DNA from: Chloroflexota bacterium
GTDB lineage: Bacteria; Chloroflexota; Anaerolineae; UBA4142; SHND01
Direction of reading: 5' to 3'
Assembly: GCA_016209205.1 (NCBI GenBank)
Contig: JACQWQ010000061.1
Span: forward strand, 1-64,000
DNA length: 64,000 nucleotides
Made by a program: the position numbers and the translations under genes. Shown here piece after piece: positions 28,461-45,522 of this stretch. The stretch's first letter is position 1. Each line of letters begins with the position of its first letter. The notes beneath the pieces were generated by a model. It worked only from the letters and a program-made list of their open reading frames with translations. It ran no database searches and was not told the DNA's origin.

Positions 28461-29051
28461 ATGTCTACAATCATCGTCGTGCGCAAGGGCAGTCAGGCAT
28501 GTATTGCATCGGATTCGATGACCACGTGGGGCGGGCATATCCGCGAGCGTAAAGCGTACGAATTCAACAACGACAAGATTTTTCAATATCACGATTCGTA
28601 CATCGGCATGGTCGGATTTGCGGGGCATCAAATGGTGTTGAAAAGTTATTTGTCCGGGCTCAAAGAAAGAGCAGACCTCTCGTCAAGTGAAGCGATTTTT
28701 GAATTTTGGCGCAAGATGCACAAGGAACTCAAAGACCAGTACTTTGTGAATCCGCGCGACGACAAGGACGACCCGTATGAATCGTCGCGGATTCTGGCGT
28801 TGATCTGCAACCCGCACGGTACGTTTTATGTGACGGATATGCGCTCGGTCGCGAATTTTTCAAAATTTTGGGCGATTGGCTCGGGGCAAGATTATGCGCT
28901 CGGCGCGTTGTATGCCAATTACAACCGTTACAAGAGTCCGCTGGACATTGCCAAAGCGTCCATTGCCGCCGCGTGCGAATTCGATTTGCACAGCGACACC
29001 CCCTGTGTGTTTTACACCGTCAAACTCGAACGACAGAAAAAAAGCGCATAA
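28461..29051 (+). CDS. Proteasome-like Ntn hydrolase
   Basis: A 196-residue protein reading MSTIIVVRKGSQACIASDSM, then TTWGGHIRERKAYEFNNDKI and GMVGFAGHQMVL, with WAIGSGQDYALGALYANYNR later. This is the layout of HslV/Anbu-type proteasome-fold proteins. In these a Thr or Ser right after the initiator Met becomes the nucleophile; here that is Ser2-Thr3. The SD-S-T block and the GSG-xYALGAL helix match. No ATPase partner is nearby, so it may act alone as an Anbu-like particle. Fold call is good, activity unproven. Confidence 0.72.
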   Translation: MSTIIVVRKGSQACIASDSMTTWGGHIRERKAYEFNNDKIFQYHDSYIGMVGFAGHQMVLKSYLSGLKERADLSSSEAIFEFWRKMHKELKDQYFVNPRDDKDDPYESSRILALICNPHGTFYVTDMRSVANFSKFWAIGSGQDYALGALYANYNRYKSPLDIAKASIAAACEFDLHSDTPCVFYTVKLERQKKSA

Positions 29052-29153: not shown

Positions 29154-31970
29154 TTACGCCTCGGCGATAGGGAGACAAACCGTAAACGTGGAGCCACTCC
29201 CGACCTTGCTCTCGACGTAGATCGTGCCCCCATGTCGTGTCAGGATCGTGCGACAAATATACAGCCCCAAGCCCGTCCCATGGTCGCGCGGTTTGGTTGT
29301 AAAAAGCGGCTCAAAGAGATGGGGCATATCTTGTTCCGAAATGCCACACCCATTGTCGCTGATTCTCACGTAAACGGTTTGGGTCGTTTTGTCTGCATGA
29401 GCGGCGATTTGAACCTGTCCACGGCGCTCCGCCGGAATCGCGTCACGCGCGTTAAACAGCAGGTTCGTCCAAACAGTCTGTAAATGACTCGCGCTCCCAG
29501 TTACTGCGGGGAGGTTCTCCGCCAATTGTCTGATAATCCGAATCCCCGCATCCTTTAAGGGAACTGCAATCAGCGCCAGCGCATCCTCGATCGTTTCATT
29601 CACATCCAAAGGCACGAATTGATATTCTTCCTGTCGCGCAAAGCTCAGCAAATTGCGCGCAAAGCGCTCGGCGCGCTGTCCCGCGCGTTCAATGATCTGG
29701 GCATATTCAAAACACGCGTCGCCGGGCGGTATGGCGCGCAGCAGCATCTGCGCATTGGCAATCACCGCCGTCAACGGATTACTTATCTCGTGCGCAATGC
29801 TGGCAGATAATTCCCCGACGATAGAAAGCCGCGCCGATTGAATGAGCGATGTTTGTAGTCTGCGTTCTTCGGTAATATCCTTCGCAAGATAGACCACTCG
29901 ATCCACCGCGCCCGTTTCGTTCTCTACCGGATACGTTCTTACCACCCGCGTTCGCTTGTCGCCATTTTGAAGGGTATGAGATTGGATTGCGTCTACCACC
30001 TTGCCCGTGCGAAAGGATTGGGTTACCGGGCAAGTCAGGCACAGTTCGTCGGTCCTGCAGAGTACTTGGTTACAGGGTAGCTGCCACAACGCGCGCGGGG
30101 TCTTGCGAACTTGGTTCGCTGTCGCTTGATTCAGTGCTTCAACCCGCATGTTTCGATCCATGATACAGATGCTGTCGGTAATCCCATCAAAGAGTACGCG
30201 CAGGATGTTGCGGCTTGCCAGGATTTCCGCGTTCTGCTTCTCCAACGCGCGGTTGGTCGTCTCAAGGTCCGTAAACAGACGCGCGTGCTCGATGGCGATA
30301 GCCGCTTCGACGGCGATCATTTCCAACAAGTGTTCGTCATGGTCGTCGAATGCGCCATCCAATTTGTTGAGTGCTTCGATCACGCCAATGACCTTGTCAT
30401 TGGTCTTGAGCGGCGCGGCGAGAATCGAACGCGTGACATAACCGGTGACCGTGTCTATGTTCGGACACCAGCGCGGATCGGTGCTCACATCGTTCACACG
30501 GGTCGGCTTGCCTTGGCGCGCAACCCACCCCGCGATGCCTTCGGAGAGCGGCAGGCGCATGTGCTGCGCCCCTTTTGCTTCGTCGCCAAGCGCTACCCGA
30601 AAGTATAATTCGCCGCTTGCCGCATCGAGCAGCATCAACGAGGCGCGCTCTACCGACAGCAGTGACTTTAGTTCGCGCATGACCAAGTCCAGCAGCTTGT
30701 CCAGATCGAGCGTCGAGTTGACGCTGATGGCAACCTTACGCAGCGCGTCGAGCTCGCGCAGCTTGTGTTCGCGTTCGGCATGTAAGCGCGCGTTCTCCAT
30801 CGCGATGGCGGCGTACTGTCCTAATGCTTCGAGCGTTTTGCAATGGCGCTCCTGAAACACGCGCGGCGTCGTGCTGCTCAAGGCGATGAACCCGATGACT
30901 TTGTCCTTGACGCATAACGGTGCGCCCAAGTGCGCACGAACCCACGGCTGGGCGGGCATGTGAATCCAGTCCGCGTACGCCTCCACATCGGGAATCAAGA
31001 GGGGGCGCTTGGTTTCGTACATCTGGCGCAGGTTGGCAAATTGGGCGAGCGGAAATTGGAGCTGGGGAGGAACCGTGGGCAACTGTTCTGCGAAGGTGCG
31101 GCTGCGAATGACTCGGGCTACCCCGTCATCGAGCAAAAGAACATGCGCCGCATTGCACGGCACAAGGTTTCCCATGGAATCGAGGATGTGATCAATCACC
31201 GCGTCAGGTTGAAGCGTGCTATTCAGCGCGGCAGCAGTTTCCTTTAACGCATCCGCAAGGCGGTGCTGCTCCCGTTCCGCCTCTTCCGCCACTTGGCGCG
31301 CCGTGATGTCAAGCAGGACTCCCTGCATAATACGCGCATTGCCATCGCGGACGGGGAGCCGCGCGGCAACATCGTGGAACCACAGCACGCGCCCGTCGCG
31401 CGCAAGCATCCGATAATCGGCGTCAAAGGGCAAGCCGAGCGCTTCCTTCTCTGCCCTGTCGGCAAAAACGCGGTCACGGTCCTCAGGGTGAAGCTGCTGC
31501 GCCCAGAGCCCCGGTTGATTCAGCCATTCCTCACATGTAAAACCCAGCAGCGTTTCAATCTGCGGACTGACAAAGAGCGTTTTACCGGGATCGCCCAGCG
31601 CGGCGATGTAACTAATCGCTGGGATCTGCTCGACGAGCGTACGATATTTTTCTTCACTCTCGCGCTGTGCTTGCTCGAGCTGTTCGAGCTGATTGGCTTC
31701 TTGTTGCGCCGCCGTGGACAGGCGCGCGTGTGCGCCCGTAAGGCGCTTGAATTCTTGCCAGCGCCGCAACGCGAATACGCCGAGTGCCAAGCTGATCATC
31801 GCCAGCAGGAACACTCCTTGTGAAACGTTCACCAGGAGTAGGGTGGGATTGAACCACAGGAGAATCAGAACGGCAAGCCAAGAGACCGCAATAATAAAAA
31901 GCTCTTTTGCAGCTGTCGAATATTTGCGGAGGAGCTCTGCTTGCCCGACCACAGTAGATTTGTCTGGCAT
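29154..31970 (-). CDS. Membrane-anchored PAS/GAF sensor histidine kinase
   Basis: A 938-residue kinase. Two N-terminal helices (ELFIIAVSWLAVLILLWFNP; GVFLLAMISLALGVFALRRW) precede a PAS domain (about 115-235), two GAF domains (about 260-420 and 430-590) and a second PAS-like domain. That second PAS holds a Cys cluster (LPCNQVLCRTDELCLTCPVT) that could bind metal or a cluster. HisKA has the phospho-His in SASIAHEISNPLTAVIA. HATPase has N-box NLLFNARDAI, DNGCGIS and GTGLGLYI. It lies just downstream of the gas-vesicle operon and has no adjacent regulator gene. The OmpR-type regulator at 44.8 kb, on the other side, may be its partner (inference). Confidence 0.9.
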   Translation of the reverse strand: MPDKSTVVGQAELLRKYSTAAKELFIIAVSWLAVLILLWFNPTLLLVNVSQGVFLLAMISLALGVFALRRWQEFKRLTGAHARLSTAAQQEANQLEQLEQAQRESEEKYRTLVEQIPAISYIAALGDPGKTLFVSPQIETLLGFTCEEWLNQPGLWAQQLHPEDRDRVFADRAEKEALGLPFDADYRMLARDGRVLWFHDVAARLPVRDGNARIMQGVLLDITARQVAEEAEREQHRLADALKETAAALNSTLQPDAVIDHILDSMGNLVPCNAAHVLLLDDGVARVIRSRTFAEQLPTVPPQLQFPLAQFANLRQMYETKRPLLIPDVEAYADWIHMPAQPWVRAHLGAPLCVKDKVIGFIALSSTTPRVFQERHCKTLEALGQYAAIAMENARLHAEREHKLRELDALRKVAISVNSTLDLDKLLDLVMRELKSLLSVERASLMLLDAASGELYFRVALGDEAKGAQHMRLPLSEGIAGWVARQGKPTRVNDVSTDPRWCPNIDTVTGYVTRSILAAPLKTNDKVIGVIEALNKLDGAFDDHDEHLLEMIAVEAAIAIEHARLFTDLETTNRALEKQNAEILASRNILRVLFDGITDSICIMDRNMRVEALNQATANQVRKTPRALWQLPCNQVLCRTDELCLTCPVTQSFRTGKVVDAIQSHTLQNGDKRTRVVRTYPVENETGAVDRVVYLAKDITEERRLQTSLIQSARLSIVGELSASIAHEISNPLTAVIANAQMLLRAIPPGDACFEYAQIIERAGQRAERFARNLLSFARQEEYQFVPLDVNETIEDALALIAVPLKDAGIRIIRQLAENLPAVTGSASHLQTVWTNLLFNARDAIPAERRGQVQIAAHADKTTQTVYVRISDNGCGISEQDMPHLFEPLFTTKPRDHGTGLGLYICRTILTRHGGTIYVESKVGSGSTFTVCLPIAEA

Positions 31971-32084
31971 GATCCCTCCATGCTTCCTCGAGGAATCCAA
32001 GCTATCCTATTGAGCTGTCTGCAATAGTCATATCATCCGACGTATCATAACTCTCGTCAATAGTCATTTTGCTGGTGGTTATCC

Positions 32085-32180: not shown

Positions 32181-32480
32181 TCAGGGCGTTGCGAGGCGCG
32201 CTTCCAATTTGTCGAGACGCTCGCGCAGCAGCCGGTTTTCTTCTTCCATCTTTTTCGCGCGCGATGAGAGTGCGGGATCGCCTTGCCACCAATCAATCCC
32301 AATCTCGCGCGCCTTGTCCACCGAGGCGACGAGCAAACGCACTTTGATTTGTAATAATTCCACGTCGGCGAGCGAAATCGTAATATCGCCCGCGATGACG
32401 ATGCCTTTGTCCAGCACTCGTTCCAAAATATCAGCCAGGTTTGTCGCTTGGACCGAATGCATCATGGTGGCTTGTGTCAT
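32181..32480 (-). CDS. GvpA-family gas vesicle protein (GvpJ/GvpS-like)
   Basis: A 99-residue protein with the GvpA-family core: NLADILERVLDKGIVIAGDI, then TISLADVELLQIKVRLLVAS. After the core it has a helical, charged tail (EEENRLLRERLDKLEARLAT) that is absent from GvpA. The tail and the VIAGDI form point to the minor GvpJ/S/M type that starts or caps the shell. It is the last gene of the minus-strand cluster. The subtype is uncertain. Confidence 0.85.
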   Translation of the reverse strand: MTQATMMHSVQATNLADILERVLDKGIVIAGDITISLADVELLQIKVRLLVASVDKAREIGIDWWQGDPALSSRAKKMEEENRLLRERLDKLEARLATP

Positions 32481-32551
32481 TTGTATGGCTCCTGCTGCGT
32501 GCCGCTTCCGCGCTCGCTTATTTACTCACTGATGTTACGCACTGTCATGCC

Positions 32552-32660
32552 TCAATTCCCTCAATTCCCTCAGTTTCCTTAGTTTCCTCAGTTCCCTCAA
32601 TTCCCTCAATTCTTCGGGCCAAGCCTTCGGGCCAAGCCTTCGGGACTAGGTTTTCGAGGA
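32552..32660. repeat. Low-complexity repeat (CTCAATTCC and CCTTCGGGCCAAG units)
   Basis: About seven 8-10-bp units of CTCAATTCC type are followed by three CCTTCGGG(CCAAG) units, in the 237-bp gap between gvpK and the last GvpA-family gene. The final unit (CCTTCGGGACTAGGTT) recurs at 57914. No gene. Confidence 0.7.
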
Positions 32661-32717
32661 GCGGTTCCTTCATTCTTCATGCGATGAACGGCATCGCCAC
32701 AAGTTTTGCGGTGCTGA

Positions 32718-33131
32718 TTACATCAGATCACCCAGCGGTCCGAGGTTAATATTCAGTTCTTGACCTTCCAACCCAAAGACGCGCTTGAGCTCTTGCATCT
32801 TGGCTTCTAACTTGAGAAACGTCTCGCCCATCCGTTCGATCTCTTCGTCGCTCAGAGAACCCGCTTCGATGCGGCGGATTGCCTGTTTCTCCAACAAACG
32901 GCGAATGAGCTCGATCAACGTCAGCACGAGTTTCGCCAAGCCCTGCTCCACTTTGTCGGGATCAAGCGCCACGCGGTCGGGCAGGGTGTGCTCCACGTGC
33001 TCGAGCGCGGCGACCATTTCCTCTAGGTGCGCGTCGCCCACGAGCACGTGTGCGGCAAGCCATTCGTCGTTCGTAGGGCTGACGTCCAAAGCCGCAGCGA
33101 CCTCTGGCGCGAGCAGCGAGTCGGGACTCAT
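32718..33131 (-). CDS. gvpK: Gas vesicle protein GvpK
   Basis: A 137-residue protein. The C-terminal ~80 residues are classic GvpK: LAKLVLTLIELIRRLLEKQA, then IRRIEAGSLSDEEIERMGET and FLKLEAKMQELKRVFGLEGQ, ending NINLGPLGDLM. The N-terminal ~55 residues (APEVAAALDVSPTNDEWLAA) are not typical and may be a lineage extension. The start at 33131 overlaps the TGA of the TPR-like gene (ATGA). GvpK is a minor protein needed for vesicle assembly. Confidence 0.93.
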   Translation of the reverse strand: MSPDSLLAPEVAAALDVSPTNDEWLAAHVLVGDAHLEEMVAALEHVEHTLPDRVALDPDKVEQGLAKLVLTLIELIRRLLEKQAIRRIEAGSLSDEEIERMGETFLKLEAKMQELKRVFGLEGQELNINLGPLGDLM

Positions 33132-33490
33132 CGCTTGGGCGCCTCCGCGCCGAATGCCGCTTTCGCCTTGATCGCCGCGTGCGGTGCGGGCTGCGCGGCG
33201 GCGTCCGCGTGTTCTTGAGACTCGAATTCGGCGAGACGCTGATAGATGGACAGGGCTTGATGATAGCGTCCGCACTCTTCAAAGACGCGCGCGATTTCTT
33301 GAACATGCTCCTTTGCCGTGCGCGCGGCGTCACTCTCCGCAAACTGGGTCATTACCTGGGTATAGGCGTCGAGCGCCTGATACAGCTGCCCGGCATGTTG
33401 CCAGTGCGCCGCTTGGCGCAGCACGAGGCGCAGTTCCGCGTCCATCAGAGTTTCCTTCAAAGTCGGTTCCTTCGTTTTCTTGCGTGCCAT
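33128..33490 (-). CDS. TPR-like helical protein of gvp cluster
   Basis: A 120-residue protein with two TPR-like helical repeats: HWQHAGQLYQALDAYTQVMT and VFEECGRYHQALSIYQRLAE. It has a Lys-rich start and an Ala-rich tail. AAGGAG lies before the ATG, and its stop overlaps gvpK. TPR proteins are scaffolds. This one is not a standard Gvp and probably helps chaperone or dock minor vesicle proteins (inference). Confidence 0.72.
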   Translation of the reverse strand: MARKKTKEPTLKETLMDAELRLVLRQAAHWQHAGQLYQALDAYTQVMTQFAESDAARTAKEHVQEIARVFEECGRYHQALSIYQRLAEFESQEHADAAAQPAPHAAIKAKAAFGAEAPKR

Positions 33491-33536
33491 ATTTGCATCT
33501 CCTTGAAAAGGTGACGGGTAACGGGAAACCCTTGCT

Positions 33537-34301
33537 TTACAGTCCGCGTGTTAACAATTCGTGGTCAATAAAGTTGTACGGCGCCCACGGTCCGCTGCAG
33601 AAAAAATGCTGTTCCGGTTGGTCCGCTTGCAGCTGCCTGACCTCGCTTCGAAACAGCTCGACCAGCGAGCGCTCGACCAAATACTGTGCATTCACCATCA
33701 GGTCGGGATCCGTCAGCACATTATATTGGCCTTCGACAGCCAGAGGCAATAAGCGGCGTTGAATCGCTTCCGCTTGTGCAGTCACTTGCCGCTTTAAGCG
33801 TTCCACTGCGGCGTACTCGAAGGCGCGTTCCCGTAAATAGCGCGTGCCGGGCGGCGGGCCCGCTGTGGCGCCGGACGTTTCGGGTTGCCCATCACTCCAT
33901 TCTCGTTCCCGGTGACACAGCACGCACAGTCCCAATTCCACGCGGTTCATCACGCGCGCCAGATTACGTTTGAACGACAGATAACGTTCCGCCAAAAGCG
34001 CGCGTACCGCCTGCTCGTTCGGTAGAATGGTCCCAAAGCGCACGGGCAAAAGCGTATCCTCGCGCATCAACGCCTGGATAATGCGCGCGTGACGCAATGC
34101 GTCATAGGGCAGGGTGAGGCGCGCATCGCAACCAGCTGCGCGGATCACTGCGCCAATATCGCTAAACGTGACGCAAGCGAGGGTTGCATCCTCGACGGTG
34201 AATAGACGCGCCTCTGCAATGTGTTTACCGCTGACGATGGCGTACACATAATAGCCCCCGACAGCCGCGTCGCGCCCTGGTCTTTCCACACGCTCATTCA
34301 T
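33537..34301 (-). CDS. GvpF/L-family gas vesicle protein, copy 1
   Basis: A 254-residue GvpF/L. The N-domain is YYVYAIVSGKHIAEARLFTV; the helical middle has the family hallmark ALMREDTLLPVRFGTILPN; the C-domain has YFVER-type helix (NAQYLVERSLVELFRSEVRQ) and ends GPWAPYNFIDHELL. The PxRFGT and GPWxPYNF blocks are diagnostic. GvpF/L bind GvpA and guide it into the shell. It overlaps the preceding GvpA-family gene by four bases. The cluster holds four members, so F and L roles cannot be told apart. Confidence 0.93.
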   Translation of the reverse strand: MNERVERPGRDAAVGGYYVYAIVSGKHIAEARLFTVEDATLACVTFSDIGAVIRAAGCDARLTLPYDALRHARIIQALMREDTLLPVRFGTILPNEQAVRALLAERYLSFKRNLARVMNRVELGLCVLCHREREWSDGQPETSGATAGPPPGTRYLRERAFEYAAVERLKRQVTAQAEAIQRRLLPLAVEGQYNVLTDPDLMVNAQYLVERSLVELFRSEVRQLQADQPEQHFFCSGPWAPYNFIDHELLTRGL

Positions 34302-34558
34302 TCCACGGTACCGTATTTTTCTTCCAGACCCCCGCGCAGCGCTTCAGCACGTTCGACCGAAGCAAGCATCACTTTCAGTCCGAGGAAAATCAAGTCAACG
34401 TCTGCCACCGAGAGCGTCAGATCGCCGCTGAGGACCACGCCTTTATCCAGAACGCGATCGAGAATTTCCAACAGCGTCACCTCGCGCCCGTCTGCACTCT
34501 GACGCCGCGCCGCGTTTGCGCGCGGGCGCGCAACTCCGCCCCGCGCGTGGTCATACAT
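34298..34558 (-). CDS. GvpA-family minor gas vesicle protein
   Basis: An 86-residue protein with the core LLEILDRVLDKGVVLSGDLT, then LSVADVDLIFLGLKVMLASV. It has an Arg/Ala-rich N-terminal extension of ~25 residues and a short tail EEKYGTVE. The VLSGDLTLSVADVDL form fits GvpJ/M/S rather than the major GvpA, which here has [15 protein letters not shown]. It overlaps neighbouring GvpF/L genes at both ends (8 bp and 4 bp), so all three are co-translated. Confidence 0.88.
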   Translation of the reverse strand: MYDHARGGVARPRANAARRQSADGREVTLLEILDRVLDKGVVLSGDLTLSVADVDLIFLGLKVMLASVERAEALRGGLEEKYGTVE

Positions 34559-35390
34559 GTTCCGACTCCGCCGCAGAATTCAAAAAGTTGTATGGCGCCC
34601 AGGGGCCTGTCCATTCAATTTGCCACCAATCGTGTTCGGGCTGCAACCTCTCGACCTGATGAATAAACGCAATCAACGCTTCTGGCTTAACCAAGAATGC
34701 TGCATTCAGGATCATGACGTCCCATGGATTCGACTCGCCGCTGCGCCCGGTGAGTTCTGGTGGGAGCAACCGCAAAAGGCATCCTTCCTCCGCACTCGCG
34801 AGGAGCCGGATGTACGCGGCATCCGCCTCGGCAAGCAGCGCTTGCTCCACGCGCTGGGCGATCTGCTCGTCCAATTTTTTTTGATACAGGTAGGCGGCGC
34901 CCGCGCGTTTTTTTGCAAGCGCCGCCGCTTGTCGCGCGAGCGTCGCGTCGTTCGTCACGAGATTTGTTTTCAAAGCCGCGCGGTTCGCAAAAATTTTGAC
35001 GCCCCATTCTTGTTTTCCCGCCAGCTGCTGCAGCAGCGCGCGAAAACGCGGCGCGTTCTCTTGCAACCGCTGCGTCACCGCGTCTTTCGTTTCGAGCAAG
35101 GTCCCGAATTTGATGGGGATGATCGTGCGCCGCGCAAAAACCACACGAATCACGCGTTCGTGCGCGAGAACCTGGCCTTCCAACCACGCGGCCTCTTTCA
35201 TCCGCGCTTGCAAGGCGCCGGCGGAAAAATCCGCAAGGGGCACGCGGCTGACAACCGCCTGGAGATCCTCGAAGGTGACGCGGCTGACCGGTTCCCCTGC
35301 GCCTACGCCCGCGAGCGGTTCGTCGCAATCACCGCTGCGCGCGGTGATGCCGTAGAGATAATAGGCAAACGCGTTCACATCCGTCATCAT
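34551..35390 (-). CDS. GvpF/L-family gas vesicle protein, copy 2
   Basis: A 279-residue GvpF/L: AFAYYLYGITARSGDCDEPL, then the hallmark VFARRTIIPIKFGTLLETKD, a Lys/Ala-rich helix (RQAAALAKKRAGAAYLYQKK), NAAFLVKPEALIAFIHQVER, and GPWAPYNFLNSA. It overlaps gvpG by four bases upstream and the GvpA-family gene by eight downstream. It is the longest simple GvpF/L here and shares the GPWAPYNF ending with copy 1. Confidence 0.93.
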   Translation of the reverse strand: MMTDVNAFAYYLYGITARSGDCDEPLAGVGAGEPVSRVTFEDLQAVVSRVPLADFSAGALQARMKEAAWLEGQVLAHERVIRVVFARRTIIPIKFGTLLETKDAVTQRLQENAPRFRALLQQLAGKQEWGVKIFANRAALKTNLVTNDATLARQAAALAKKRAGAAYLYQKKLDEQIAQRVEQALLAEADAAYIRLLASAEEGCLLRLLPPELTGRSGESNPWDVMILNAAFLVKPEALIAFIHQVERLQPEHDWWQIEWTGPWAPYNFLNSAAESEHV

Positions 35391-35656
35391 CGCCCTATGC
35401 TTTCTTGCTGCGCTTCGAGAATGGCGTTCAAGCGTTCCAGGAGCAGCGTTTCCGCCGCGTTAAATTCTTGCTCGTCCATCTCGCCCATATCATAGCGCAG
35501 CTGCAGCTCCATCAATTCCTGACGAATCTTGTCCGGGTTATTGAATTCCTTGTCCACGTGATTGACAATTGAATTTATAACGAACGCCAAGCCGTACCCG
35601 GGCGCCGTAATCGGAAAAAGTAAAATGGTGCTGATTAAACCCATCGGCGGCTCCAT
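35387..35656 (-). CDS. gvpG: Gas vesicle protein GvpG
   Basis: An 89-residue GvpG: GLISTILLFPITAPGYGLAF with the hydrophobic start and P-x-AP-G motif, then HVDKEFNNPDKIRQELMELQ and LRYDMGEMDEQEFNAAETLL. This matches GvpG, a small helical protein that works with GvpF/L in assembly. It is seven bases after the zinc-finger gene and overlaps the following GvpF/L by four bases. The start may be the second Met (residue 5). Confidence 0.92.
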   Translation of the reverse strand: MEPPMGLISTILLFPITAPGYGLAFVINSIVNHVDKEFNNPDKIRQELMELQLRYDMGEMDEQEFNAAETLLLERLNAILEAQQESIGR

Positions 35657-35663
35657 ATCTGTT

Positions 35664-36020
35664 TTACATCCACGCGAGAATCACCCCCGCGCCTCCACAA
35701 TAGCTGCACGGAAGCGCACTACCTACCCAACCTGCACCTGCCGCACGTCCCGAACCATGACAGCGCGGGCAAGCGTCCTCATTCTCCCAGACCTGGATGC
35801 TCCCGATGCCGTGGCAGGTGGTGCACGTCAAGCGCGTGTGCGGAAAAATGCCCGTGCCCGCGCAAAAGGCGCAGCTCACAACGGGCTTGACCAAAAGGTG
35901 GGTGCCGCGCCCATTGCAGACCTGACAAGCGGACAACGGAGACAAAAGAGCGAATGGATCGAATCCCGTGCCGCCGCAAAAGCCACACGCTACCCTATTC
36001 AGAAAAATAAGCTGGCTCAA
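35664..36020 (-). CDS. Free-standing DnaJ-type zinc-finger protein in gvp cluster
   Basis: A 118-residue protein made almost entirely of six CxxCxGxG-like motifs: CGFCGGTGF, CQVCNGRGT, CAFCAGTGI, CTTCHGIGS, CPRCHGSGR, CSYCGGAGV. DnaJ has four such motifs. Here there is no J domain or substrate domain; the J domain is instead fused to the GvpF/L encoded nearby at 36856-37911. It lies three bases after one GvpF/L and seven before gvpG. It probably binds unfolded Gvp proteins (inference). Confidence 0.88.
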   Translation of the reverse strand: MSQLIFLNRVACGFCGGTGFDPFALLSPLSACQVCNGRGTHLLVKPVVSCAFCAGTGIFPHTRLTCTTCHGIGSIQVWENEDACPRCHGSGRAAGAGWVGSALPCSYCGGAGVILAWM

Positions 36021-36023
36021 GGG

Positions 36024-36794
36024 TTATTCCTCATTCCAATTCACGACGATGTTGACAAAATTGAACGGCGGCACGGGCCCCACATACTTGAAGGTGACAC
36101 GCCCGGCGTACTGTTCATCCAACCGGTTCACTGCCGCGTCGAATTCGGATTCGACGGTGCAACACACCAGAAACGCGGCGTTGACAATCATCGCATCGGT
36201 GAGCGTTTGGTTGACGCGCAGCTCGTCGGCAAGCGGGCGCAGCGTTTCTAAAACTTTTTCTGCCGCGGCATCGCGTTTGGCAATCAGCGCCGCTTCGACC
36301 ATGCGTCCCAATTCAATGCGGTCGGCGTAACCTTGCGCCGGCGGTGTTGCCGCCAATAGGTCGCGCAAGCGTTGAATCTGCATGTCCTCTGCTGCGATTT
36401 CGCGAAACATCTGCTCTTTGTTCCAGAACGCTTTCAGCCCCAGCTCCACTTTCCCTTGGACGCGATATAGATACCCGTGCAGCAGCCCAAAGCGGCGCTT
36501 GAGCAAACGCTCGCGGATTTGGTTGATGCTTTGCGCGACCGTGCCAAAGCGCACCGGCAAAACCGTAAACCCGCGCTGCATTACTTCCTCGATCACTTTT
36601 TCATGCGCGAGCGTGTTTTGGCGACTAACGTCATAGCGTTTGATGGGCGCGTCGCTCAAGACTGCAGCCAAATCGTCATAATGGACGGTGTACACACGTT
36701 CGCTGTTCGTGTGCGCAATCGGCTGCGCGGAAAACACCTGCGGTGCCGTGCTCTGGATAATGCAGTAGATGTACTTGCCGTCAGTGTCACTCAT
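36024..36794 (-). CDS. GvpF/L-family gas vesicle protein, copy 3
   Basis: A 256-residue GvpF/L: GKYIYCIIQSTAPQVFSAQP, hallmark MQRGFTVLPVRFGTVAQSIN, the helical core (RGFTV... KVELGLKAFWNKEQMFREIA), then VNAAFLVCCTVESEFDAAVN and a variant ending GPVPPFNFVNIVVNW. It follows the J-domain GvpF/L by 61 bp and precedes the zinc-finger gene by three. The GPVPPFNF end and the KVELGLK block place it with copy 4 rather than with copies 1 and 2. Confidence 0.93.
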   Translation of the reverse strand: MSDTDGKYIYCIIQSTAPQVFSAQPIAHTNSERVYTVHYDDLAAVLSDAPIKRYDVSRQNTLAHEKVIEEVMQRGFTVLPVRFGTVAQSINQIRERLLKRRFGLLHGYLYRVQGKVELGLKAFWNKEQMFREIAAEDMQIQRLRDLLAATPPAQGYADRIELGRMVEAALIAKRDAAAEKVLETLRPLADELRVNQTLTDAMIVNAAFLVCCTVESEFDAAVNRLDEQYAGRVTFKYVGPVPPFNFVNIVVNWNEE

Positions 36795-36855
36795 CGTCGT
36801 CTACACGAGGCGAGAGCTGAATGACTCGGTGCGCAGCTCTCTATCCTCTGCACTT

Positions 36856-40082
<3,227 letters not shown>

Positions 40083-40138
40083 TTACGCCCCCGATGAAGG
40101 CGTCGTTGAAAATTATTCCCGGATCACATTCAAGCTGC

Positions 40139-40369
40139 ATGCCGCACCATCACATCACCCAAACCCCACACAGCTACGCTCTCTACGTGAAATTTCCAAC
40201 TCCCTTTGCACCGTCGAATCTCCGCTTCCACATCGAAGGCGACATTCTCAAAGTCGAGTATGTGGGACCCGAGTTTGCCTATTCCCACAACTTTATCGTG
40301 CCTGCTGGTTGTAAGTACACGGTTGCTTTTCAACCGCAAGTGTTCCACATCGAGTTTCAAACTACCTGA
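40139..40369 (+). CDS. Possible small protein opposite the gvp operon
   Basis: A 76-codon plus-strand frame in the 300-bp gap between the Cdc48 and HEXXH genes: SALYVK-type strands, then FHIEGDILKVEYVGPEFAYS and FIVPAGCKYTVAFQPQVFHI. The alternating hydrophobic pattern looks like a real beta protein. There is no Shine-Dalgarno, and it runs against all neighbours, overlapping the HEXXH gene end by 13 bp. It may be a shadow. Confidence 0.35.
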   Translation: MPHHHITQTPHSYALYVKFPTPFAPSNLRFHIEGDILKVEYVGPEFAYSHNFIVPAGCKYTVAFQPQVFHIEFQTT

Positions 40370-41415
40370 CATTCCATTCCGATCCCTTTCGCGCGCAGCG
40401 CGCGATCGAGAATGCCGGCCAGCTGTTTGACCTGCAGCGCGGTTTGCGCGCGCGTCAAGTTTTGCGGCAGCTGCGCGAGTTGATCGCACAGCGCGGGATA
40501 GACCGCGCGTACCTCGGGATCAACGTGTGCCAGCACGTCTACTTGAAACGCGCGCTCCAACATTTTCGCTTCGGCTAATTTGCCTTGGCGATAGAATGCG
40601 GCGGTTTCGAGTGCGAAATCGAGATGGCTCTGCATATCGCCCAGCGCCAGCAGCGCTGCCGCGGCGCGGTGGGTGAGGACGCGTTCGGTTTCGACTTGAG
40701 CTTGCAGTTGTTCTTGCAGCGCAGGACGGATGACGATGCTCGCGGCGGCGCGGCGCACGTTTTCCACGTCAAGATGCAGCAGCGCATCGGTAAAACGCAG
40801 CTCCAATACCAGCGCGTTCGCAAGCACTTCGCGCGGACCGTACAGGCATAATTTATCAAAGAGTTCGCGCACTTGCTGTTCGAGTGTGCGCTTCCACTCG
40901 CGCACGCGCGCCGCGTTCGCATCGGGACGAAACAGATTCGCGGCGAAACGTGGGTGCAGGATCAGGGTGAGGTTGCGCAGCGCGTGCGTGGTTTCACATT
41001 CCGCGAGCGGATGCGCCAGCTCGTGCGCCAAGAGTGCGCTCAGAGCTGGTTCGTCATTCCAATAGCCCGCGCGCTCCATTCCTTCTTGATTGACGAAAAT
41101 ATTGGACGCGGTGGGATGAGCGAGATCGTACACATTCAGAATCGGGCGCGCGCGACCCCAACCCATGCTGGGCAAGGCGGCTTGCGCGGCGAGATGCTGC
41201 ACCAACGATTCCAAGTTCCGCAAAATAAAAAGGGTGATGGTTCGCGCGGCATTCCCGTCGCGCTGCCAGCGCACATCGTTGCTGAACTTTTGCAGCACCT
41301 GAATTTGAATGTCTATCAAGTGCAGCACGCCATCTTCGACATCCGCGATCACGCGCAGCTCGGTCTCGCCAATCCGATGCAAACTGAAATGTTTAACGGG
41401 ACGGGCACGGCTCAT
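40357..41415 (-). CDS. HEXXH metallopeptidase-like protein of gvp cluster
   Basis: A 352-residue protein. The centre reads LSALLAHELAHPLAECETTH, an HEXXH zinc-protease motif (HELAH) with later Glu/His candidates for the third ligand. Nearby NIFVNQEGMERAGYW and AHPTASNIFV suit a gluzincin-like active-site strand. The C-terminal half is helical with many Leu and Ala (RRAAASIVIRPALQEQLQAQ). There is no signal peptide, so it is cytosolic. It lies between Hsp20 and Cdc48. It may trim or degrade vesicle proteins; I do not recognise the family beyond the motif. Confidence 0.65.
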   Translation of the reverse strand: MSRARPVKHFSLHRIGETELRVIADVEDGVLHLIDIQIQVLQKFSNDVRWQRDGNAARTITLFILRNLESLVQHLAAQAALPSMGWGRARPILNVYDLAHPTASNIFVNQEGMERAGYWNDEPALSALLAHELAHPLAECETTHALRNLTLILHPRFAANLFRPDANAARVREWKRTLEQQVRELFDKLCLYGPREVLANALVLELRFTDALLHLDVENVRRAAASIVIRPALQEQLQAQVETERVLTHRAAAALLALGDMQSHLDFALETAAFYRQGKLAEAKMLERAFQVDVLAHVDPEVRAVYPALCDQLAQLPQNLTRAQTALQVKQLAGILDRALRAKGIGMECQVV

Positions 41416-41424
41416 TTTGAAACT

Positions 41425-41955
41425 CTACTTGGCTTTCTCGACGCGCAGTTCGAAAATGCCGTTCTTGTACGCTTTCTTGAGCGTCGCGCTGTTGACCGCG
41501 CCCGGCAGCAAAATCTCTTTGGCGTATTTGCGCGCACCGGTGGTGACAAGGGAGAGGATGTCGTCTTTTGCCTCAACCTGGATTTCTTCTTCGCTCACGC
41601 CGGGCAGTTCGACGACGATGAGGTACGCGCCGTTCTCGTCAAAAACGTCCACGAGCGGCTCGCGCGATTCGGCGACGACAGGCCCCTCTTCGGTCTCGCG
41701 GATATTGCCGAAATGTTCGACTTGCGGCATCCCGCCAATGCCGGTGCGGATCGAGAAACCATAGACCCCGCGCAGCTGATCGCTCCCTTTGAATTTGATT
41801 TCGCCGGTGCGGTTAAGCGTTTCGCCCTTTTCTGCGAGATCGCTCACGAGGTCGAGAAAGTTGCCCAGCCCTTTGAACAATTCGCCAAAACCGAGATCAA
41901 TGTGTACTTGCGCCTCTTCATCCTTTTTCACGTGTTTGCGTCGCGGCTCGGCCAT
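41425..41955 (-). CDS. Hsp20-type small heat-shock protein (GvpH-like)
   Basis: A 176-residue protein with a strong GGGAGG seven bases before ATG 41955. The N-terminal half is variable and charged (GFGELFKGLGNFLDLVSDLA). The alpha-crystallin domain begins REPLVDVFDENGAYLIVVEL, followed by PGVSEEEIQVEAKDDILSLV and AYKNGIFELRVEKAK, with the A-x-x-x-G-x-L-type NGIFEL motif. Hsp20 members in gvp clusters are called GvpH and bind GvpA or stabilise the vesicle. It lies nine bases before the HEXXH gene. Confidence 0.88.
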   Translation of the reverse strand: MAEPRRKHVKKDEEAQVHIDLGFGELFKGLGNFLDLVSDLAEKGETLNRTGEIKFKGSDQLRGVYGFSIRTGIGGMPQVEHFGNIRETEEGPVVAESREPLVDVFDENGAYLIVVELPGVSEEEIQVEAKDDILSLVTTGARKYAKEILLPGAVNSATLKKAYKNGIFELRVEKAK

Positions 41956-42035
41956 AAGACCTCCCAAGGATTCTCGATTTTCGATCCGAGCTCTGTGCCG
42001 GGGAACTCGAATCCGAAATCCGAAATCCAAAAGCT

Positions 42036-42341
42036 CTAATATTCCAGCGTCACCTGACTCCACGCGGGCTTGGACTCGTCTGTCGTGGCGATGAACGCGG
42101 GTTGCAGTGCGAGCAGTTCTTTCTGCGCCTGCGCCAGCTGCGTTTGGAGCAGTTCGTCGAGTTCCGCCAGACGCCGCTGGATGCGCTCGATCTTTTGTGT
42201 CCACATTTGCAGCTCTTGCTCCAGGCGCCGGCGTTCTTCCGCATAACGATGCATTTCGATGTACGACTGTGTTTGACCGCGCGGACGCGTTCGAACGCTG
42301 CGGATCGTGCGCAAATCGTGCATGGACTTAAAGTTTGCCAT
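42036..42341 (-). CDS. Coiled-coil protein of gvp cluster
   Basis: A 101-residue protein. Start 42341 is chosen because AGGAG lies eight bases upstream; the ATG at 42347 would be only two bases away. Residues about 25-85 are a strong coiled coil (AEERRRLEQELQMWTQKIER and RRLAELDELLQTQLAQAQKE), with a short tail. It overlaps the end of gvpN by 14 bp. The size and coil suggest a scaffold or linker such as those acting in vesicle size control; no named Gvp fits clearly. Confidence 0.7.
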   Translation of the reverse strand: MANFKSMHDLRTIRSVRTRPRGQTQSYIEMHRYAEERRRLEQELQMWTQKIERIQRRLAELDELLQTQLAQAQKELLALQPAFIATTDESKPAWSQVTLEY

Positions 42342-43305
42342 TTTCATGCTCCTTTGTGGCAACGGCGTTCTCTGGCAGATAGTCTGCCAGGAGTTTTAGA
42401 ATCGTGTGGATGCGCTGCAATTTCGCGGGTGAGGTATTTGGCTCGGCGCGACCCGCGTCCAGCACGTCGAGAAAAACCTGTCGCACCATCGGATCGGTAT
42501 GGATGGCGCGCGCATGAGTGGCATGCAGCAGCTTGGCGACCATGAGCGATTTGCGAATGCTGGGACGATGTTCGTATTCGCCCGTTTCGCGGAACGCGCG
42601 CACCAAGTTTACAATCCGTTCGGCGTCGGCGCGGGCGAGTCCTGTACGCGACGCGGTGATTTCCACTTCGGTTTCCCGGTCGAAATCGCCCAGCTCGATG
42701 GTGATCATGCGGTCGAGCAGCGCGTCCTGTACTTTGTGCACGGCGATATATTCTTCCGGATTGCTCGTCAGGATCGCCGCAAAACCGGGGTGCACTTTGA
42801 TATAGCCGCTCGCGCCATTAGTGTGGGGAAGCACGAGGAGCTTTTCTTCCAGCACGGTGAGCAGCGTGTTGTTCGCCTCGGGGCGTGAGCGGGTGAACTC
42901 GTCATAGATGAGCGTAAACCCTTCCTGACACGCCAGCGTGAGGCGATTGCTGGCCCATTGACGATTCGAATCTTCTTCCACCTTCACAACCGAATGGACA
43001 AAATTGTCCCACACATAGCGTCGGCTGTAGCCGACCTCGCGCCCAACAAGGTCTTGGGTGGTGAATTCATCATCGCCGACGATGAGCATGGTTGGACGTC
43101 CCAGCTGATTGGCGACGTGCACGGCGAGCGTGGTTTTGCCGCAGCCCGCCGGTCCGCGAAAATGCACCGGATAGCCCGCGCGCAAGTAGGCGAGCGCGCG
43201 TTCGCTTAACGCTTGAATGTACGGTGTTTCGACAAAACCAGCGCGCGGCTGAAACCGCAGCACCGTCGTAGGCGCGTCATTCAATACAGCGGCTAGTTGG
43301 TTCAT
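42328..43305 (-). CDS. gvpN: Gas vesicle protein GvpN (MoxR-type AAA+ ATPase)
   Basis: A 325-residue GvpN: RFQPRAGFVETPYIQALSER, Walker A RGPAGCGKTTLAVHVA, GDDEFTTQDLVGREVGYSRR, Walker B FTLIYDEFTRSRPEANNTLL, sensor AILTSNPEEYIAVHKVQDAL. These are diagnostic of GvpN, the AAA ATPase required for normal vesicle growth. An RBS (AGGAGGAAT) precedes it. A strong hairpin upstream (43337-43387) separates it from the structural genes. Confidence 0.95.
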   Translation of the reverse strand: MNQLAAVLNDAPTTVLRFQPRAGFVETPYIQALSERALAYLRAGYPVHFRGPAGCGKTTLAVHVANQLGRPTMLIVGDDEFTTQDLVGREVGYSRRYVWDNFVHSVVKVEEDSNRQWASNRLTLACQEGFTLIYDEFTRSRPEANNTLLTVLEEKLLVLPHTNGASGYIKVHPGFAAILTSNPEEYIAVHKVQDALLDRMITIELGDFDRETEVEITASRTGLARADAERIVNLVRAFRETGEYEHRPSIRKSLMVAKLLHATHARAIHTDPMVRQVFLDVLDAGRAEPNTSPAKLQRIHTILKLLADYLPENAVATKEHENGKL

Positions 43306-43336
43306 CCGATTCCTCCTCGTGCTCTTTAGACTATCC

Positions 43337-43387
43337 GCAAAACCCGAAGGGCGCGGCGTGCTTGCTGCATGACCCTTCGGGTTTTGC
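43337..43387 (-). terminator. Hairpin/attenuator between gvp structural genes and gvpN
   Basis: Perfect 15-bp stem GCAAAACCCGAAGGG/CCCTTCGGGTTTTGC with a 21-nt loop, between the GvpC-like gene stop and gvpN. There is no long U-run after the stem, only UUUU inside the 3' arm. It probably attenuates and/or protects the abundant upstream gvpA mRNA. Confidence 0.75.
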
Positions 43388-43390
43388 TAT

Positions 43391-43798
43391 TCAACTGCTT
43401 TTTTCCTTGGGTGATGATTTCGGCGCGGGTGTAGGTGTGGGTGTGGACATCGGCGCGGGGGCTTTGGCGCCGCTCCGGCGGCGCTCGATCTGTTCCGCGG
43501 TGCGGCGCCATGCGGTGCGCGATTGCGCGCTGACCGTTGCCAATTCGTTCATCATCTTTTTTGTCGCCGCCTTGAACTCGGCATGATCTTTTTTCAACTT
43601 GGTATTCAAGGCAGCGAAATCCGCTTGCATGGCTTTGGTCATGGCAGCGTGTTCCGCGTCGAACTGGGCGAGCAGTGTGATGGTGTCATTCTGCATTTTC
43701 TGAACGGTCGCCCGGCGCGCCGCGTCACCCGCGCGGCGGTGATCGTACTCGTTCACAATCCCCTGACCCAGTTTTGTCATTTCATCTGAACGTGACAT
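43391..43798 (-). CDS. GvpC-like coiled protein
   Basis: A 135-residue protein, nearly all helix: RRATVQKMQNDTITLLAQFD, AEHAAMTKAMQADFAALNTK, LKKDHAEFKAATKKMMNELA. Short helical repeats with spaced Phe/Leu recall GvpC, which clamps the outer face of the vesicle. A Pro/Thr/Lys tail (APMSTPTPTPAPKSSPKEKS) follows. It lies between the two gvpA genes and gvpN, where a second structural protein would be expected. The similarity to GvpC is one of pattern; a structural search is needed. Confidence 0.55.
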   Translation of the reverse strand: MSRSDEMTKLGQGIVNEYDHRRAGDAARRATVQKMQNDTITLLAQFDAEHAAMTKAMQADFAALNTKLKKDHAEFKAATKKMMNELATVSAQSRTAWRRTAEQIERRRSGAKAPAPMSTPTPTPAPKSSPKEKSS

Positions 43799-43961
43799 AC
43801 GTCATTTGTCCTTGCCTTGGGTGATTCAGCCACCGCGATCCTTGTTTCACATTCTGGGATGTGTTAGAATGGCGGTGGGTGGTGGGGTCGAAGGAACCGG
43901 AGCGTCCCCAATGCCTCGAGTTCGCCTCGACCCTTTCACCCAAATTTTTTGTTGATAGCGC

Positions 43962-44180
43962 CTAGCGGGCGGGCGTGGCGATCGTCGGAGTCAAGCCGAT
44001 GGCTTCGGCGTACTTGAGGTACGTTTCCACACCGGCAGCGACGACGCGCGCTTCCACCGCGAGCAGTTCGATACCCACCAACGACAGGCGGACCCACGCG
44101 TCGATCACCAACCCCTTGTCGAGTACGCGGTCAATCACTTCGACCAGGCTCGAGGACGCAATTGCTTTCTCCATTGCCAT
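43962..44180 (-). CDS. gvpA: Major gas vesicle protein GvpA, copy 1
   Basis: A 72-residue Gvp[58 protein letters not shown]. This is the classic shell protein, with the DKGLVIDAW and VGIELL motifs. Start 44180 is set by GGAGG eight bases upstream. Its last ~170 bp are almost identical to copy 2, with only about three base changes. Both copies probably supply shell subunits. Confidence 0.97.
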
Positions 44181-44288
44181 AGGATTTTCCTCCATAAGAA
44201 TCATTCAGCTGTGGTTGCGGCTGATGCGCGTTGAGCATTTTCGTGCAGCGATCATCTGACTTTCTTTCCCTCCCCTCGCCATTTCGAA

Positions 44289-44525
44289 TTAGCGGGCGGG
44301 CGCGGCGATCGTCGGAGTCAAGCCGATGGCTTCGGCGTACTTGAGGTACGTTTCCACACCGGCGACGACGACGCGCGCTTCCACCGCGAGCAGTTCGATA
44401 CCCACCAACGACAGGCGGACCCACGCGTCGATCACCAACCCCTTGTCGAGTACGCGGTCAATCACACTTGGGTTTTCCAGCTTTGAGGACCGGGGCGATT
44501 GATGCGCATGATAATGGCTCGGCAT
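44289..44525 (-). CDS. gvpA: Major gas vesicle protein GvpA, copy 2
   Basis: A 78-residue GvpA with core [18 protein letters not shown] and then the same [26 protein letters not shown] as copy 1. The first ~22 residues differ ([16 protein letters not shown]), with a His/Ser/Pro-rich start. SD GGAGGG lies nine bases before ATG 44525. It is the first gene of the operon, nearest the putative promoter. The shared body but different head suggests gene conversion or recent duplication with head replacement. Confidence 0.95.
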
Positions 44526-44793: not shown

Positions 44794-45522
44794 TCATGGA
44801 CGTTCGCTCGGCAAAGCAGCATTCGGAGGTTCATCTATTTGAATGGAATAGCCAAAGCGCCCGATTGTTTTAAGATACACTGGCGCGTGTGGCGCCGCTT
44901 CGATCTTGTTTCGCAGATTCTTGATATGCACGCGCACCAATTCGGGACTGCCCGCGTCGGGCGGATAGCGCCATACGTGACGGAGCAGGTCTCCAGAGGT
45001 AAAAACTTCACCGGCGTGTGTCATCAAAAAGTACAGCAGCTCAAATTCGACCGGTGTGAGGAGCGCCTTACGACTGGCATTGGTCATTTCGAATGTGCGC
45101 ACGTTAAGCGTAAGCGTGCCAACAGTAAGTGTCTGCGGGGATTCTGTCTGTTTGCTCGTACGTCGCAGCAGCGCTTTGACACGCAGCTCCAGCTCCTGCA
45201 GATTGAAGGGTTTTACGAGATAATCATCCGCACCCGCGTTAAACCCAACGATTTTGCTTTCGATCCCACTGCGTGCAGTGAGAAATAAGATCGGAATCGC
45301 CGCGGTGGTTGGATTGGCTCGGACGCGCTGACAGACTTCAATGCCATCCATCTCAGGCATGGCCATGTCGAGCAGAATCAAGTCTGGATGTTGACGATGA
45401 ATCCGCTGCAGCGCTTCGTACCCATTATTGGCGACGACGACTTGATAGCCCTGACTCGCCAGGTTCATGCTGATTGTCTTGGCGACGTCCAGATCGTCGT
45501 CCACCACCAAAATGAGAATCAT
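44794..45522 (-). CDS. OmpR/PhoB-family response regulator
   Basis: A 242-residue regulator. The receiver (1-120) has acidic DDD at 8-10, phospho-Asp 52 in LILLDMAMPEMDG, Thr in ILFLTARSG and Lys in DYLVKPFNL. The winged-helix domain (about 130-230) has LTPVEFELLYFLMTHAGEVF and LVRVHIKNLRNKIEAAPHAP, ending in a wing GRFGYSI. No kinase gene is adjacent; the nearest is at 29-32 kb, across the gvp cluster. It lies 268 bp upstream of gvpA and reads the same way, so it may control the cluster and be its own upstream neighbour. Confidence 0.92.
   Translation of the reverse strand: MILILVVDDDLDVAKTISMNLASQGYQVVVANNGYEALQRIHRQHPDLILLDMAMPEMDGIEVCQRVRANPTTAAIPILFLTARSGIESKIVGFNAGADDYLVKPFNLQELELRVKALLRRTSKQTESPQTLTVGTLTLNVRTFEMTNASRKALLTPVEFELLYFLMTHAGEVFTSGDLLRHVWRYPPDAGSPELVRVHIKNLRNKIEAAPHAPVYLKTIGRFGYSIQIDEPPNAALPSERP

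Follow-up and report, generated by a model that had tools for sequence, protein, structure and literature searches.

The stretch analysed here, the window, extends over bases 1 to 64,000 of contig JACQWQ010000061.1 (110.5 kb) in the 6.38 Mb draft assembly GCA_016209205.1 (279 contigs) of a Chloroflexota bacterium. It carries a gas vesicle (gvp) cluster on the minus strand, running from 44525 down to 32181, in which genes for protein folding and unfolding machines stand among the vesicle genes. The core result is a group of gas-vesicle-linked Cdc48 ATPases, usually adjoining a GvpF/L gene; the second is a GvpF/L protein fused to a J domain, with an occasional DnaK encoded in the same cluster. 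These machines probably help to build or dismantle vesicles, and the accessory genes would form a gas-vesicle-dedicated unfoldase/Hsp70 client-handling set with parts varying by lineage, a reading to which we give a probability of roughly 0.6.

The window Cdc48 matches the NCBIfam model CDC48 (TIGR01243) at 936 bits against a cut-off of 802.65, contains CDC48_N, CDC48_2 and two AAA domains, and has two Walker A, two Walker B, arginine-finger and pore-loop motifs; it is a putative ATP-driven unfoldase. Across 68 gvp-linked Cdc48s read with a narrow pattern, Walker A was found twice in 47, once in 19 and not at all in 2, and Walker B twice in 64 and once in 4. The cluster copy is the sole match above the family cut-off in the window genome (next best 263 bits). 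A single full copy was present in each of eight further genomes picked for a Cdc48 at a gvp locus (8/8); in a set of 14 control genomes, a Cdc48 above the cut-off was confined to the 4 archaea.

The association of Cdc48 with gas vesicle genes extends well beyond the window. Among 400 Chloroflexota genomes, gvpK was found above its cut-off in 53 and a full Cdc48 in 64 (both 35, gvpK only 18, Cdc48 only 29, neither 318; Fisher p 8e-20), that is, Cdc48 occurs in 35/53 gvpK genomes versus 29/347 others. A second phylum, that of a Geobacter genome, gave the same picture over 247 genomes (both 12, gvpK only 5, Cdc48 only 6, neither 224; Fisher p 1.2e-12), with 12/17 gvpK genomes versus 6/230 others; the best 2 or best 4 Cdc48 candidates were scored per genome. 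The two genes lie on one contig and at most 25 kb apart in 25 Chloroflexota genomes, representing 13 family codes by our own reading, and in 8 genomes of the second phylum. Because gvpK genomes carry Cdc48 far above the others in two phyla, the link between accessory and gvp genes is not accidental, and the co-occurrence search in Chloroflexota and beyond that the earlier note on this cluster had proposed returns a clear association for Cdc48.

A draft of 279 contigs might nevertheless bring unrelated genes together by misassembly, or leave random neighbours side by side. The same neighbours, however, recur in many independent assemblies and on complete plasmids of Methylocella, Methylosinus and Octadecabacter; an assembly accident is rejected on this recurrence, and the chance of either kind of coincidence is negligible. 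On the plasmids of Methylocella tundrae and Methylosinus sp. C49, the gvp cluster is annotated with a CDC48 family ATPase, with Hsp20 or GvpH one gene ahead of it, and the Octadecabacter arcticus plasmid gvp cluster has the J fusion and Hsp20, with no Cdc48 within the 33 kb read. Two Ca. Chloroploca genomes contain related clusters, and Ca. Chloroploca asiatica is reported to have gas vesicles (PMC6180586; this and the other papers cited are represented by excerpts of their texts). Within a set of 99 relatives, window genome counted, GvpK was matched in 7 and exceeded the cut-off in 6; at least one accessory family lies on the gvp contigs of G021, G041, G077, G082 and G091, and none on that of G004, whose GvpK scores below the cut-off. 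The idea that the accessory genes might stand next to gvp genes only in this assembly is contradicted, and so is the related view that the set is special to this cluster, being common in gvp clusters of many phyla.

Fetched loci were annotated with profiles built from the window proteins and from the loci themselves, using score cut-offs set by us; genes beyond the end of a contig or stretch go unseen, and absences are upper bounds. The 53 Chloroflexota gvpK stretches contain Cdc48 in 23, the GvpF/L-J fusion in 23, DnaK in 7, a stand-alone DnaJ-type zinc finger in 6, a protein with an HEXXH motif in 9, Hsp20 in 26 and ArsA in 5. At least one of five families (Cdc48, fusion, DnaK, zinc finger, HEXXH protein) occurs in 32/53. 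Cdc48 lies on the gvp contig just beyond the fetched stretch in G115, G260 and G355, and a gvp-type Cdc48 lies on a different contig in G100, G109, G301, G446 and G461, so that G301 and G109 do not genuinely lack it; after correction by hand, 31/53 genomes have a gvp-type Cdc48 and 19/53 have none of the five families. The 17 clusters of the second phylum contain Cdc48 in 12 (some on a second contig), the fusion in 5, DnaK in 6, the zinc finger in 5 and the HEXXH protein in 0, with at least one of the five in 15/17. A further set holds the best 80 of at least 484 GvpN loci found with a Chloroflexota query, is biased toward that query, and shares some identical contigs with the phylum sets; here Cdc48 occurs in 48, the fusion in 36, the zinc finger in 27, DnaK in 9, Hsp20 in 55, ArsA in 33 and the HEXXH protein in 7, and 71/80 loci have at least one of the five. 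Hsp20, Cdc48, fusion, zinc finger and HEXXH protein are all present in only 2/53 Chloroflexota stretches, one of them the window, and in 3/80 GvpN loci, contig ends hiding some. The accessory set is therefore a frequent option in gvp clusters and not a requirement, as clusters without it exist, and a fixed six-gene module, the form in which the set had first been described, is rejected on the rarity of the full combination.

Phylogeny places most linked Cdc48s together. For the first tree, hits below 500 bits or 600 residues and two window copies were dropped and near-copies removed (105/122 rows kept); 65/68 linked rows fall on one side, together with 6 unlinked rows, all 6 from gvp-bearing genomes, and in G430, G405 and G377 linked and unlinked copies belong to separate groups. 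The second tree retains 73/105 rows after removal of three long rows and of rows at least 80% identical; all 50/50 linked rows lie on a single side, joined by 4 unlinked ones, among them L181, in whose genome no GvpK was detected. Nine NCBI phyla, as read from the record titles, plus KSB1 and Melainabacteria are represented among the linked rows. Distances between Cdc48s follow those between the GvpN proteins of the same loci (r 0.80, n=57 loci; 0/2000 permutations as high), although part of this correlation may be owed to organism kinship.

Gene order points the same way: counting annotated families only, GvpF/L is the next gene after Cdc48 in 54/68 loci and bears a J domain in 27, and Hsp20, Cdc48 and GvpF/L follow one another in 30/68. 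Where Cdc48 and the fusion are both present, the fusion is the next annotated gene in 27/36 loci. Conserved order of the accessory genes, which the earlier note had proposed to count, is found for this segment.

The window fusion scores 48.6 bits against the Pfam DnaJ model (cut-off 27.8) and has the HPD motif, which is kept in 50/58 fusions distinct by J segment. With the J domain fused to one GvpF/L, the protein could hand a shell subunit to an Hsp70, and stimulation of that Hsp70 is predicted from the domain and its motif. The window genome has two large Hsp70 genes outside the cluster. In the GvpN set, DnaK loci have the fusion in 9/9 cases; over loci of at least 12 kb from the GvpN and Chloroflexota sets, the fusion occurs in 9/9 loci with DnaK versus 36/79 without (p 0.0025), a test that covers neither short loci nor the second phylum and whose DnaK loci reduce to 7 distinct contigs. 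In an unrooted tree with only two non-gvp DnaKs, the gvp DnaK of Anaerolineae branches close to the main DnaK of the window genome (62% identity) and other gvp DnaKs branch elsewhere; this hints that gvp DnaK was recruited more than once, and a single gain is doubtful. The window zinc finger reaches 44.5 bits against PF00684 (cut-off 32.7) and has six CXXCXGXG motifs, a number kept in 46/75 distinct stand-alone zinc fingers; one stretch, L017, holds eight copies. As a side observation, the loci L017, L018, L019 and L020 of class relatives represent another type of gvp cluster, in which a distant GvpK is accompanied by Hsp20-like genes and numerous genes for DnaJ-type zinc fingers.

Taken together, gvpK-Cdc48 co-occurrence, the shared side of the trees, distances that track GvpN, the joining of a J domain to GvpF/L and the DnaK of some relatives bear out the claim that the accessory genes belong with the gvp genes. 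General stress chaperones serving many clients and merely co-regulated with gas vesicles might leave a similar trace, given that Hsp20, DnaK and Cdc48 have general roles elsewhere, as textbooks describe, and that two Halobacterium cdc48 genes, neither in the plasmid gvp cluster, are raised by heat shock (PMC1971269). But a J domain covalently joined to a Gvp protein, and linked Cdc48s that form a group distinct from most others and track GvpN, make this explanation highly improbable.

The cluster consists of the following genes, in the order of the minus strand.

44289..44525, minus strand: gvpA1, major shell protein, 78 residues (PF00741, 51.1 bits)
43962..44204, minus strand: gvpA2, major shell protein, 80 residues (PF00741, 56.3 bits; NF006874 GvpA, 121.8 against a cut-off of 100)
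43391..43798, minus strand: 135-residue coiled-coil-looking protein, GvpC candidate by its position alone, between gvpA and gvpN
42328..43305, minus strand: gvpN, AAA+ ATPase (AAA_5, 56.9 bits; 52-53% identity to two same-class relatives)
42036..42341, minus strand: 101-residue coiled-coil-looking protein overlapping the gvpN stop (no family above cut-off; start picked by Shine-Dalgarno spacing)
41425..41955, minus strand: Hsp20-family small heat-shock protein (PF00011, 25.5 against 20.8 bits; NF041800, 138.5 against 140)
40357..41415, minus strand: HEXXH protein, putative zinc metalloprotease (motif, AlphaFold2 model, weak Foldseek matches)
37908..40058, minus strand: Cdc48-type N-D1-D2 AAA+ unfoldase, putative (TIGR01243, 936 bits)
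36856..37911, minus strand: GvpF/L with C-terminal J domain including HPD (PF06386, 195.9 bits; PF00226, 48.6 bits)
36024..36794, minus strand: GvpF/L (PF06386, 231.3 bits)
35664..36020, minus strand: stand-alone DnaJ-type zinc finger, six CXXCXGXG motifs (PF00684, 44.5 bits)
35387..35656, minus strand: gvpG (PF05120, 68.7 bits)
34551..35390, minus strand: GvpF/L, gvpF3 (PF06386, 202.1 bits)
34298..34558, minus strand: minor GvpA-family protein, gvpA3 (PF00741, 57.1 bits)
33537..34301, minus strand: GvpF/L, gvpF4 (PF06386, 165.8 bits)
33128..33490, minus strand: small TPR/SNAP-like helical protein, a weak call (sub-threshold SNAP and TPR matches)
32718..33131, minus strand: gvpK (PF05121, 117.2 bits)
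32181..32480, minus strand: minor GvpA-family protein, GvpJ-like (PF00741, 66.1 bits; best NCBIfam GvpJ, 55.5, under the cut-off of 125)

With gvpA, gvpF/L, gvpG, gvpK and gvpN all present, this is a gas vesicle cluster. Pfam families above curated cut-offs are Gas_vesicle (four times), GvpL_GvpF (four times), GvpG, GvpK, HSP20, CDC48_N, CDC48_2, AAA (twice) and DnaJ_CXXCXGXG. The inventory first read from the letters (two gvpA, two minor gvpA-family genes, gvpN, gvpK, gvpG, Hsp20, Cdc48, J fusion and zinc finger) holds by Pfam and NCBIfam scores above cut-offs, and for gvpN by AAA_5 and its relatives; four GvpF/L genes are likewise found, the J fusion being one of the four and not an addition to them. 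The TPR-like call fell: 33128..33490 scores 22.2 against 27.9 bits for TPR_7 and 23.2 against 25 for SNAP, and the assignment is rejected. The protein at 43391-43798, which occupies the position that GvpC has in other clusters, matched no Pfam or NCBIfam family above cut-off, and no GvpC match was found among the cluster proteins searched. The Hsp20 start is most likely 41955, and its PF00011 score came from a longer frame. Four-base overlaps join cdc48 to the gvpF-J fusion, gvpG to gvpF3, gvpA3 to gvpF4 and the TPR-like gene to gvpK, the first and last tying accessory to gvp genes as had been stated; the zinc finger gene has gaps of 3 and 7 bases to its neighbours. The HEXXH gene sits between Hsp20 and Cdc48, 298 bases from cdc48, which starts with ATG.

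Two further families recur in gvp clusters, uB (24/80 loci) and uA (10/80), exemplified by L022 12381-13052 and 13697-14482; neither matched a Pfam family above cut-off. GvpA-family and GvpK matches share one open frame in L035, L039, L149, L152 and other loci, a possible fusion.

Degradative quality control, in which Cdc48 would unfold shell protein that had failed and deliver it to the HEXXH protease or to a partner resembling the proteasome, draws on the HEXXH protein, a candidate gluzincin-type metallopeptidase. Its motif is present in 14/14 family members, and in an alignment of 10 members the frame residues of the motif as well as Glu139 and Glu196 do not vary. AlphaFold2 modelled the protein with confidence (predicted local distance difference test score 91), and the model gave weak Foldseek matches to M61/M1 peptidases, the best to M61 (E 5.6e-3, template modelling score 0.30 by query) and none below 0.001. 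It scores 14.7 bits against Peptidase_M48 (cut-off 20.3), so the HEXXH motif stands while M48 membership is rejected. A proteasome-like gene at 28461-29051 on the plus strand, 3.1 kb from the cluster, matches PF00227 at 25.2 bits (cut-off 22.4). Against this, all HEXXH genes found belong to Chloroflexota (9/53 stretches, 0/17 clusters of the second phylum, 7/80 GvpN loci). The C-terminal HbYX motif, a proteasome-docking signal, was found in 0/68 linked and 0/37 unlinked Cdc48s, and tblastn at 1e-5 matched the proteasome-like gene to none of the other fetched loci; on both counts a proteasome link for Cdc48 is rejected. Since the HEXXH protein is limited to Chloroflexota and linked Cdc48s lack HbYX, remodelling and hand-over are favoured over degradation, which is quite unlikely. 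Of the dedicated shell-protein quality control proposed in the earlier note, the gvp linkage of the accessory genes stands, while the protease arm is not general: protease-based quality control is the weakest part of the reading, its protease being lineage-limited.

Disassembly deserves more weight, though it too is rather unlikely. Cdc48 might extract GvpA from mature or collapsed vesicles for sinking or shell recycling, with the J fusion and Hsp20 holding the released subunits; Cdc48-type AAA+ proteins are textbook segregases, and some Chloroflexota clusters include a protease-like gene. The window cluster lies between two-component genes of its own strand, namely a sensor-kinase-like gene just downstream (29154-32000) and a response regulator with Response_reg and Trans_reg_C domains just upstream (44794-45522), and buoyancy may thus be regulated; the regulator, of a common family, has 104 similar pieces in the fetched loci (tblastn). 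Yet Cdc48 lies among assembly genes, often near or overlapping GvpF/L, with no separate control visible.

Several observations weigh against a dedicated client-handling set. In the first tree, linked rows L094, L046 and the very divergent L218 lie outside the gvp side, and in G372 and G229 both copies, including the unlinked one, lie within it. The gvp-Cdc48 branch has a Shimodaira-Hasegawa-like approximate likelihood-ratio (SH-aLRT) support of 82 in the first tree and 92/81 in the second, below the starred level, and both trees are unrooted; the Fisher and distance tests are uncorrected for kinship. Relatives with gvp genes but without accessory genes, which the earlier note had held to indicate an accidental link, do exist in part: 21/53 Chloroflexota stretches show none of the five families, and 17 of these 21 are at least 15 kb long. 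The window cluster has no DnaK; Cdc48, J domain and DnaJ zinc finger are all missing from the Halobacterium NRC-1 plasmid cluster, in contrast to the window. HPD is absent from 8/58 fusions; three of these (L088, L108, L172) have a cluster DnaK, an argument against Hsp70 stimulation in the lineage concerned. Finally, DnaK is accompanied by the fusion in 4/7 Chloroflexota loci, the other three stretches being at most 5.7 kb, and in 3/6 clusters of the second phylum, where stretches of 4.5, 10.7 and 12 kb have no fusion in view.

Published work is in line with a need for chaperones. GvpF binds GvpA and may be its chaperone, and elongation, perhaps also proofreading, requires the AAA+ ATPase GvpN (PMC9501494, PMC11445434); aggregation of GvpM is prevented by GvpH (PMC6107691, PMC4390858), and Hsp20 and ArsA homologues co-occur with gvp genes in several phyla (PMC2963123), Hsp20 also in PMC7325909. 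Hsp20 and ArsA in gvp clusters are thus already published, as the earlier note had stated for Hsp20. The excerpts of PMC4046663, PMC8138137, PMC1971269 and PMC2631018 mention chaperones or Cdc48 and gas vesicles only apart, and no description of a link of Cdc48, the J fusion or DnaK to gvp clusters was found in the open-licence literature searched, preprints and supplements lying outside its scope.

A client-handling set could work as follows. GvpF/L proteins would bind hydrophobic subunits of the GvpA/J/M type, as reported elsewhere for GvpF, and Hsp20 would hold subunits soluble. The J-bearing GvpF/L could pass a bound subunit to an Hsp70, presumably chromosomal DnaK here and the cluster-encoded DnaK in some relatives; the fusion and the separate six-motif zinc finger would amount to a DnaJ split in two, with GvpF replacing the client-binding domain. 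Cdc48 may unfold or pull apart misaggregated or misinserted subunits, which GvpN would then use for rib growth, and the Chloroflexota-only HEXXH protease may clear those beyond rescue. It is tempting to go further and propose, at slightly less than even odds, that gvp-Cdc48 represents a branch of bacterial Cdc48s devoted to a single organelle. With GvpF-J, Hsp20, the six-motif zinc finger and, where a lineage has it, gvp-linked DnaK, it would form an Hsp70-Cdc48 relay for loading, editing or unloading hydrophobic shell subunits. If the proposal is true, a Cdc48/Hsp70-type set tied to gvp genes in many phyla would supply named energy-using parts for the process that maintains GvpA in solution and builds it into an expanding gas-filled shell, a bacterial Cdc48 lineage would be assigned a client, and candidate genes would be at hand for gvp clusters that do not work in a new host. 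Of 15 gvp clusters tried in E. coli at 30 degrees, five gave substantial signal (PMC10344784). The earlier observation is confirmed, better supported but less window-specific and less uniform than first proposed, and its interpretation is partly supported.

Classical clusters of Halobacterium and cyanobacteria likewise contain gvpA, gvpN, gvpF/L, gvpG, gvpK and minor gvpA-family genes, and one gene of the Halobacterium NRC-1 cluster matches the Hsp20 profile at the place of GvpH. A Nostoc sphaeroides plasmid cluster (L247 11743-13584) has ArsA next to a 613-residue double AAA protein with a CDC48 match of 662 bits, confined to the AAA region. The clusters of PMC2963123 include ArsA, which was not found in the window cluster, and the terms cdc48 and dnaK are absent from that paper's main text. 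The window Cdc48 has the N domain, two AAA domains and Walker and pore-loop motifs in common with archaeal and eukaryotic Cdc48 (VCP-like ATPase, p97), its best solved relative being the VCP-like ATPase 5g4f; unlike them, the window type is bacterial, gvp-linked and apart from most other bacterial Cdc48s sampled. Cpa of actinobacteria is likewise a bacterial Cdc48-like ATPase and, going by a paper's title, reportedly interacts with the proteasome, whereas gvp-Cdc48s lack HbYX, a contrast drawn from that title. The canonical DnaJ zinc finger has four CXXCXGXG motifs. Class A DnaJ proteins combine it with a J domain bearing HPD, two elements that the window also has; there they belong to separate genes, with the J domain fused to GvpF/L and six motifs in the zinc finger, as though a J-protein had been divided and a Gvp protein possibly recruited as its client-binding part.

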